From: Polynucleobacter sp. MWH-S4W17
GTDB lineage: Bacteria; Pseudomonadota; Gammaproteobacteria; Burkholderiales; Burkholderiaceae
Direction of reading: 5' to 3'
DNA length: 64,000 nucleotides
Assembly (NCBI RefSeq): GCF_018687535.1
Contig: NZ_CP061295.1
Span: 930,001-994,000 of the forward strand
The translations under genes and the position numbers were made by a program. This document shows, piece by piece, positions 20,784-22,539 of this stretch. How positions within the stretch are numbered: position 1 is the first letter of the stretch; each line of letters begins with the position of its first letter. Under the pieces are notes generated by a model. It was not told the origin of the DNA. It worked only from the letters and a program-made list of their open reading frames with translations, and made no database searches.

Positions 20784-21488
20784 TTGGCAAATATATTGGC
20801 CATCGACACCTCTTCAGCGTGGTGTTCGGTGGCTTTATCTTTAGGTGATAAAGCACCAGAGTTCAGGCATGAAGCTGTTTCAGCTGGTGCCAGCCAACTT
20901 CTATTGCCCTGGGTTGAGTCGCTGCTAGCTAATGCAAAACTGTCTTTAAAAGATCTTGATGCTATTGCTGTTGGTATTGGTCCCGGCGCATTCACGGGGG
21001 TTAGATTGGGTGTGGCTGCAGTTCAAGGCCTGGCAATTTCAAATAATCTTCCGGTCATATCCGTATGTAGCTTAGATGCAATAGCCGCGCAAATTACCAG
21101 CGCCGAGATTTATAAAAAGACCAAGCCTCAACGCTTCATGATAGCCATTGATGCACGCATGGAAGAAATTTATTGGGCGAACTATGAGTCTCAAGCTACT
21201 CAATTACCAAAACGCGTGAGTGATATTCACCTCACAAAGCCTGAAGTGCTTAACTTTGATGGCTTGCAACTCATAGCTGGTAGCGCTTTAAATGCCTACA
21301 GCAATCGTATGCCCCTATTTGATGGTCCAAAGGATGTCGAGATCTCAATCTCTGCATTGGGTGTCTTAGAGTGCGCCAAACAATCGTTTAAAGAAGGGCT
21401 GCAGGAAGATGTTCGACTGCTTGAGCCAATGTATGTGCGAAATAAAGTGGCATTTACCACTGCAGAGCGTGAAGGGGGGATGAAATAA
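20784..21488 (+). CDS. tsaB: tRNA threonylcarbamoyladenosine biosynthesis protein TsaB
   Basis: Member of the TsaBDE complex that makes t6A37 on tRNAs reading ANN codons. The 234-residue protein has the ASKHA N-terminus I-L-A-I-D-T-S-S and the G-P-G-A-F-T-G-V-R-L-G motif near 69-79. The start is TTG at 20784 after an AGGA six bases upstream. Its stop overlaps the rimI ATG by one base, an arrangement common in proteobacteria. TsaB is an inactive paralogue of TsaD and acts as its scaffold. Confidence 0.92.
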   Translation: MANILAIDTSSAWCSVALSLGDKAPEFRHEAVSAGASQLLLPWVESLLANAKLSLKDLDAIAVGIGPGAFTGVRLGVAAVQGLAISNNLPVISVCSLDAIAAQITSAEIYKKTKPQRFMIAIDARMEEIYWANYESQATQLPKRVSDIHLTKPEVLNFDGLQLIAGSALNAYSNRMPLFDGPKDVEISISALGVLECAKQSFKEGLQEDVRLLEPMYVRNKVAFTTAEREGGMK

Positions 21489-22018
21489 TGTCTGATATTT
21501 CCCCGGCAGGAGGTATTGCAGAGCTCTCGTTCATGCCAATGCAAGTTGTAGACTTAGATGAAGTTCTCAAGATAGAGTCCGTCTCGCACATTCACCCTTG
21601 GACAAAAGGTAATTTTTCCGATTCTTTGGCTGCTGGACATTGGGCTTATTGCATTCGTCCGCAAGTAGACCAAATGGTGAAGGGTAGTTATTTGGATCCA
21701 GCAGTGCTTTGGGCTTACTGCATCCTTTTTCCCGCGGTAGATGAATTGCACCTTCTCAATATTACGGTCTCGCCTCATTTGCGCAAGCTTGGGCTAGGCC
21801 AAAGAATGATGGCTGCGATTGAGGGTGTAGCAGCCCAACAAAAAATGCCCCGAATTATCTTAGAGGTAAGGCCAAGCAATACCGCTGCAATAACGCTCTA
21901 TCAAAAATTGGGTTACGAGCAAATTGGTGTGCGTAAGAATTACTATCCAGCCAACCTGGAGACTGGATCTCGAGAAGATGCGCTCGTTATGGCCAAATCG
22001 ATTAAGCTAGAGCCATGA
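21488..22018 (+). CDS. rimI: Ribosomal protein S18-alanine N-acetyltransferase
   Basis: GNAT-family acetyltransferase, 176 residues, acetylating the N-terminal alanine of ribosomal protein S18. The acetyl-CoA loop reads L-R-K-L-G-L-G-Q-R-M (the R/Q-x-x-G-x-G/A consensus), and the C-terminal Y-Q-K-L-G-Y-E-Q-I-G-V-R-K-N-Y-Y motif is typical of RimI. About 15 extra N-terminal residues and a short insertion near 55-70 make it longer than E. coli RimI (148). It overlaps tsaB by 1 nt and the next gene by 4 nt, so all three are coupled. Confidence 0.9.
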   Translation: MSDISPAGGIAELSFMPMQVVDLDEVLKIESVSHIHPWTKGNFSDSLAAGHWAYCIRPQVDQMVKGSYLDPAVLWAYCILFPAVDELHLLNITVSPHLRKLGLGQRMMAAIEGVAAQQKMPRIILEVRPSNTAAITLYQKLGYEQIGVRKNYYPANLETGSREDALVMAKSIKLEP

Positions 22019-22539
22019 CCAATACTCATTCAGCCTTCTTAAAAGAGATGGGCATCACCGAATGGACTTCTCGGGATGTCATACAGGAGACAGCCTCAGT
22101 AACCGAGCAGACTAACGCTCAAGCCTCTCCTGAGCTTGCACAGTCAACTCCAAGAGTTTGCTATGGAATGTGGTGGTTTTTTGGTAGTGAACCACAGGGG
22201 GATGCTCAAATCTTATTTCAAAATATGATTCGTGTTTTGGGACTGGCTAAAAATGAGTGGGCTTGGAAAAATCCAGGGCATAGTCTGAGTCAGTTGAGTG
22301 CCCCTGAGATGCCTGTTATAGCAATTGCCTTCGGTGGGCCTACTGCCCAAAAAATCACTGGTGAAAGAGATCCATTGCCGCAGTTGCGTGAAACAGTTTT
22401 AGCTTTAAATACTGGCAATGAAGAAGAGATTCCAGTAATTGCTTCATTTGAACTAAATCAAGTACTTGCAAAACCAAATGATAAGGCATTGCTCTGGCAG
22501 GATATGTTGTTAGCGAGATCTGTGCTGCAAAACAGTTGA
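22015..22539 (+). CDS. UDG-fold protein without catalytic motifs; probable DNA polymerase III psi subunit
   Basis: The 174-residue protein occupies the slot after rimI where many betaproteobacteria have a family-4 uracil-DNA glycosylase. It aligns by eye with that family: W-F-F-G-S-E-P-Q against W-x-F-V-G-E-G-P-G, A-F-G-G-P-T-A-Q-K near 108 against A-L-G-K-T-A-A-Q, and P-N-D-K-A-L-L-W-Q-D-M near the end. The catalytic segments and Fe-S cysteines are missing (only one Cys), so it cannot be an active enzyme. The N-terminus L-K-E-M-G-I-T-E-W resembles HolD (Q-L-G-I-T-Q-W), which has a glycosylase-like fold and sits next to rimI in E. coli. HolD (psi) of the clamp loader is thus my best guess. 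Confidence 0.55.
   Translation: MTNTHSAFLKEMGITEWTSRDVIQETASVTEQTNAQASPELAQSTPRVCYGMWWFFGSEPQGDAQILFQNMIRVLGLAKNEWAWKNPGHSLSQLSAPEMPVIAIAFGGPTAQKITGERDPLPQLRETVLALNTGNEEEIPVIASFELNQVLAKPNDKALLWQDMLLARSVLQNS

Follow-up and report, generated by a model that had tools for sequence, protein, structure and literature searches.

A small gene beside rimI in Polynucleobacter sp. MWH-S4W17 very probably codes for psi, a subunit of the clamp loader of DNA polymerase III, and would have arisen from a peptide-bearing family-4 uracil-DNA glycosylase (UDG4) that lost its catalytic parts and kept its tether. Directly established for this gene are its sequence and position, the lost catalytic motifs, the predicted fold, the presence of holC in the genome and a graded set of relatives; we infer that its product binds DnaX and chi and acts at the replication fork.

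The gene occupies positions 22015..22539 (+) of the window, the 64,000-nucleotide stretch of DNA analyzed here, which comes from a 2.05 Mb genome in one contig. As the initial annotation had it, this is an open reading frame following rimI: it starts with ATG, spans 174 codons (174 aa) and shares its first 4 bases with the end of rimI (21488..22018, +; above the NCBIfam TIGR01575 cut-off), which is itself preceded in the same direction by tsaB (20784..21488, +; above the TIGR03725 cut-off). Profile comparison, fold models and alignment columns mark it as a psi-type gene, a candidate holD descended from UDG4 and devoid of the catalytic motifs. Pfam returned a single match for the protein, DNA_III_psi (PF03603) at residues 4-95 (E = 7.6e-4), which at 20.2 bits missed the gathering score of 22.2; orthologs at 69-81% identity have PF03603 assigned in the database. 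The NCBIfam model UDG_fam4 (TIGR00758) matched residues 100-167 (E = 0.003, 17.3 bits against a cut-off of 125.3) and the NCBIfam psi model residues 1-99 (E = 0.056, 13.6 against 189), so the halves of the protein point to both families. The nearest named proteins are from Polynucleobacter, and close orthologs already carry the name psi at NCBI, so that naming the gene psi is not new. Solved-structure sequences searched with the protein gave one chance match (E = 1.5), and PADLOC returned nothing.

The N-terminus of the protein, FLKEMGITEW, matches the DnaX-binding peptide of HolD/psi, a likeness first claimed for the initial 20 residues and borne out by the Pfam match from residue 4; residues 9-17 (LKEMGITEW) fit the pattern L..[LM]GI..W. 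We delimit a psi-like, candidate DnaX-binding peptide at residues 6-20 (22030..22074, +), with a helix predicted at residues 3-12. It is followed by a linker at residues 22-48 (22078..22158, +), which is variable and gapped in alignments and has pLDDT below 50 at residues 23-44, and by a core of UDG4/psi fold at residues 49-174 (22159..22536, +). Structure models of the protein match solved psi and family-4 UDG structures over the same model region, and the core is thus predicted to have both the psi and the UDG fold. The model built from the protein's own relatives is nearest to psi; a second, whose input alignment was mostly UDG4, ranked UDG above psi. A glycosylase-like fold of psi, which the initial annotation treated as a known fact, is absent from the literature passages cited here but is backed by these fold searches. 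The gene for chi, holC, whose absence had been named in advance as counting against a psi, is present in the genome (PF04364, E = 2.4e-28, above cut-off). A search of the whole genome with PF03603 at E up to 0.001 found no match, missing the window gene as well, and is therefore a weak test for another psi. Among the matches listed there is no UDG4 elsewhere in the genome, and PF03167 has one match, a family-1 Ung. Peptide, predicted fold, holC and rimI adjacency together support the candidate psi identity.

The core is homologous to UDG4. A profile of 24 Polynucleobacter-type proteins aligned with one of 42 gammaproteobacterial UDG4s over 120 columns (hhalign, E = 5.5e-17, probability 98.8%), which upholds the proposed UDG4 resemblance over the core only; the same profile against 10 second-copy UDGs gave E = 0.014. 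With family-4 enzymes (TIGR00758, PF03167; Thermus and Sulfolobus UDGa) the protein shares core fold, order of elements and, with aligned intact relatives, 22-30% identity, but it lacks the Fe-S cysteines, motif 3, the motif-1 Glu and the motif-2 His. In an alignment of 61 rows, the four Fe-S columns (130, 133, 212 and 228), occupied by Cys in 42, 42, 37 and 42 of 42 UDG4 rows, are gaps in all 19 Polynucleobacter rows, as are the motif-3 Asn and the KxRPP segment; the window protein has one Cys in total. Motif 1, GEAPG, has become G(S/N)EPQ followed by a gap, with Ser or Asn for the Glu in 19/19 rows (in the window protein GSEPQ and an 11-column gap; 22183..22197, +), and the motif-2 His is Glu or Asp, again in 19/19 (FELNQ replacing YHPAY; 22447..22461, +), both remnants being placed by profile comparison and alignment. 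The loss of active-site segments and Fe-S cysteines read from the single sequence is thus common to these rows. Published passages on Thermus UDGa propose the motif-2 His and motif-3 Asn as catalytic, the His above all (PMC5387724). Catalytic activity has probably been lost in the window protein. Its C-terminal helix (22474..22533, +; from alignments and the predicted model) retains K...W.D (KALLWQDM) and aligns to both UDG4 and HolD (ARAALWQQI).

A gene without active-site and Fe-S positions, in a genome that keeps a family-1 Ung for uracil removal, might be what is left of a decaying UDG4, without a function today. Yet the reading frame is open, nearly all of the best 120 of 771 relatives are similar in length, many columns are invariant among 24 aligned relatives, and the peptide Leu, Gly and Trp are kept in 19/19 Polynucleobacter rows; peptide-bearing genes without motif 1 also recur in other lineages. 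We give a relic the least credence of the alternatives, very little indeed. The UDG4 rows of the 61-row alignment were picked for having the peptide motif, so its invariance among them is uninformative about UDG4. The UDG-like core, and the lack of a chi match in some genomes with UDG4, would also suit an inactive protein that binds uracil-DNA or regulates repair, its peptide contacting a partner other than the clamp loader. Such a protein is unlikely, given that deletions have removed the motif-3 segment together with most of the motif-1 loop, that the model from the protein's own relatives is nearest to psi, and that the matching HolD N-terminus is reported in the review passages cited to bind tau (PMC3290774). 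We retain the psi assignment, against which stand the scores below the Pfam and NCBIfam psi cut-offs, the indirect tie of the HolD core to UDG4 and the slot genes of some chi-less genomes (both described below), and the second model's preference for UDG.

That psi derives from a UDG, as the initial annotation suggested, receives strong support from graded proteins in one genomic slot, that beside rimI. A UDG4 profile matched 22 of 26 slot proteins at E up to 10, with values of 6e-39 for L269, 1e-10 for L185, 5e-9 for the window protein, 1e-5 for L184 and above 1 for L063 and L078. In Pfam, L269 has a strong UDG match together with a psi match at its N-terminus, L184 passes the psi cut-off and also matches UDG, L079 (from a Burkholderiales slot) matches psi over residues 2-128, and L063 and L263 match neither psi nor UDG. 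A profile of the 26 slot proteins, built without enteric HolD, recovered E. coli HolD (residues 2-130, E = 5e-8) as well as 109/109 HolD rows; none of the reversed decoys was hit at E values up to 10. After the peptide had been cut from both sides, 108/109 HolD cores were still found (E. coli at 3.6e-5), with reversed decoys appearing from 1.5. Since it includes proteins already matching PF03603, this profile tests whether the series hangs together and is no comparison of HolD with UDG4 by itself. Direct comparison of enteric HolD and UDG4 profiles aligned only the 20-residue peptide (E = 0.0014), and a UDG4 profile search for HolD found none, which leaves intermediates as the sole link between the HolD core and UDG4. 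We rejected the direct profile match as proof of kinship, as the peptide alone aligned, and used the bridging proteins instead.

The non-significant direct core comparison, and the order of E. coli holD (before rimI) against that of the Burkholderiales gene (after it), would be expected if HolD and the UDG4-like genes were unrelated and had arrived at the same place, each with a psi-like peptide. Such convergence is very unlikely: the slot-protein profile detects HolD by its core alone, single proteins match both families, one and the same region of the model is matched by solved structures of psi and of family-4 UDG, and outside Burkholderiales UDG4 precedes rimI, as holD does, in 67/90 genomes. 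Psi most likely descends from UDG4. The window gene, put forward as a surviving intermediate, is indeed UDG-derived but represents a separate, parallel loss inside Burkholderiales and is not ancestor-like on the road to E. coli HolD; L269, L089 and L184 are better intermediates. It resembles HolD/psi (PF03603; E. coli b4372) in N-terminal peptide, linker, core fold, C-terminal K/R...LWQ helix, small size, rimI neighbor and a holC in the genome. It differs in keeping clear UDG4 sequence homology, which enteric HolD does not show directly, in falling under the Pfam gathering score and in following rimI where HolD precedes it; the holD-like adjacency to rimI that had been pointed out is therefore real but reversed in order.

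We surveyed this slot in 150 Burkholderiales genomes, 146 of which had a usable rimI row; the 70 planned regions were taken less G142, G145, G147 and G148. In 123/146, a UDG4 match is listed no more than 1.8 kb downstream of rimI and on its strand, the place held by the window gene, and UDG4 with motif 1 is the common state of the slot. The UDG4 listing ends at about 72 bits, and slots with weaker matches were read directly. In the 23 genomes with no listed UDG4 after rimI, we found 20 motif-1-less genes, the window gene included (116 to 330 aa where sized; strict peptide in 16, near form in G043, G087, G124 and G138), and three cases of relocated UDG4 (G039, G083 and G121). Six of the 123 matches had weak scores: G017, G041, G053, G055 and G085 were read and all lack motif 1, the peptide being weakened in G041 and G085, and G106 was grouped with its congener G017 on score alone. 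Motif-1-less slot genes, a term that describes sequence only, thus number 26, with the strict peptide in 19 of the 25 read. Those of G017, G053 and G055 retain the motif-2 His, along with some cysteines, and so may be only part-way; that they have lost activity is a guess.

Intact and motif-1-less states coexist within single families (f1, f4, f5, f7, f18, f25, f41 and f48). A RimI tree of 117 rows (26 motif-1-less, 91 others), which is based on a single gene for a short protein and gives no more than rough guidance, requires the state to change at least 11 times, or 9 times with G017, G053, G055 and G106 scored as intact or omitted. An Fe-S enzyme is unlikely to recover an active site once it is gone, so these changes are best read as separate losses, by which the motif would have disappeared repeatedly from the Burkholderiales slot. 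We considered and rejected Ung as a substitute that permitted loss of UDG4 catalysis: Ung above the cut-off occurs in 10/26 motif-1-less genomes versus 32/124 others (Fisher p = 0.23). The Burkholderiales genomes G016, G063, G105 and G138 (f17) have a slot gene lacking motif 1 and give no match to family-1 Ung; for three of them, another UDG-like match, at about 71-72 bits, is listed away from the slot.

For the rest of Gammaproteobacteria we drew on a class sample of 114 genomes, using the 90 with a rimI row and leaving out the window genome. UDG4 lies directly before rimI in 67/90, counted by profile match without individual reading and including a few partial matches, and after rimI in one, a Burkholderiales genome. 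One of the 67, G216 (L269), has lost motif 1. The other 22 have a psi-like gene before rimI (11, judged by eye, with the Trp replaced or absent in some), UDG4 elsewhere (9) or neither (2), and in E. coli the gene ahead of rimI, and overlapping it, is holD. UDG4 and psi thus appear as alternatives in one place, and UDG4 is the commonest slot state in both samples. The Pseudomonas psi gene (PA4679) presumably adjoins rimI too; no Pseudomonas sequence was knowingly taken into our comparisons.

Across the 114 class genomes, a UDG4 or psi-like gene occurs with chi in 94, without chi in 9, chi occurs alone in 2 and neither in 9 (p = 3.5e-7), an association that is confounded by reduced or incomplete genomes, also counts UDG4s without the peptide and uses a psi-like list made partly by eye. 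It is suggestive of chi as a strict partner of the slot gene but, for these reasons, is given no weight here. Nine of the 18 chi-less genomes still have a UDG4 or psi-like gene (G154, G160, G164, G183, G184, G212, G217, G233 and G236), which would be either a bridge minus its usual partner or the companion of a diverged chi. The peptide Trp is Tyr in G212 (L238).

Intact UDG4s linked to rimI share locus, psi-like peptide and core with the window gene but keep the catalytic motifs and cysteines. A regular expression for the peptide, set by eye after some sequences had been viewed, was positive in 39/42 gammaproteobacterial and 87/115 Burkholderiales UDG4 ORFs (the 115 include the spurious frame L148 and four UDG4s, L091-L094, each from a genome without a usable rimI row), in 0/10 second-copy UDGs from the same genomes and in 0/29 UDG4s from other classes of the phylum. 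Several negatives contain a near form of the peptide (ELNLYPLW, ALGIGPRW) or come from ORFs that did not extend to the N-terminus. ORFs without motif 1 were dropped from this count, 10 of 19 second copies passing the filter; a looser look at the 19 yielded ten ORFs, none with the peptide. With E values up to 1 allowed, the Pfam psi model matched 16/42 gammaproteobacterial UDG4s (lowest E 0.0015) versus 0/10 second copies. Among 80 separate loci, rimI is beside UDG4 in 74, with the peptide in 62 of the 74, and three planctomycete loci have neither rimI neighbor nor peptide. The peptide is present in two of the three relocated sole UDG4 copies; where UDG4 lies away from a listed rimI, or none is listed in the genome, 10 of 14 readable genes (16 regions) carry it, so that it goes with the gene, not the place. 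The fair peptide counts are those from the regular expression on UDG4 sets, the Pfam psi model, the 80 loci and the away-from-rimI set, not those from the 61-row alignment. In the closest case, L231, an enzyme with GEAPGADED bears YLRAMGITQWERR, compared with LQQLGITQWSLRR in HolD.

In the published passages cited, the E. coli psi N-terminus binds tau domain III and chi binds the SSB C-terminus (PMC3290774), and a chi-psi interface is present in a solved complex (PMC3197488). We propose that the N-terminal peptide of the window protein would bind the DnaX collar, with the flexible linker joining it to a glycosylase-fold core that would hold chi (HolC), chi in turn holding SSB. Historically, a UDG4 would have gained, or already had, the peptide and become a bridge to chi; as a bridge it could dispense with catalysis, which would have been lost repeatedly, leaving psi. 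UDG4s with intact motifs would use the same tether with an active enzyme, bringing uracil removal to the fork. On balance, and with clear reserve, we favor a wider reading in which the missing psi of most Betaproteobacteria and many Gammaproteobacteria is a putatively active UDG4, peptide-tethered to the clamp loader, that equips the replicase with an enzyme for uracil removal; E. coli HolD and, independently, the window gene would be descendants keeping only the chi/SSB bridge, and the peptide may be older, in Trp-less form, in other classes. A catalytic psi may serve in many of the bacteria that are regarded as having none.

The cited passages of a 2012 review place chi in alpha-, beta- and gammaproteobacteria and psi only in gammaproteobacteria, and ask whether divergence has put psi out of reach of detection or whether chi can function in its absence (PMC3290774). 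A possible answer is that psi sits in the rimI slot, annotated as a uracil-DNA glycosylase; we saw the rimI-linked peptide-bearing UDG4s only under UDG names or models. If true, psi gains an origin in a repair enzyme, the conversion of an enzyme into a structural component of the replisome has happened several times, and uracil excision would be physically tied to the clamp loader. A literature search covering few subscription papers found no paper joining psi with uracil-DNA glycosylase, and the UDG4 origin of psi and the catalytic psi-UDG seem new.

None of the UDG4s from outside the class (L270-L298) has the Trp motif; many of those in family f173 have YLREIGVxTP, and several others have FYxxxGVDxxxxEEP-like stretches near the N-terminus. 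These Trp-less stretches are possibly an older form of the psi peptide. One rimI-linked Burkholderiales UDG4, L085 (G126:C40, about 100591-102135), is interrupted in frame, at the conserved KC/RPP site, by a 353-aa insert resembling an intein that contains a homing endonuclease.
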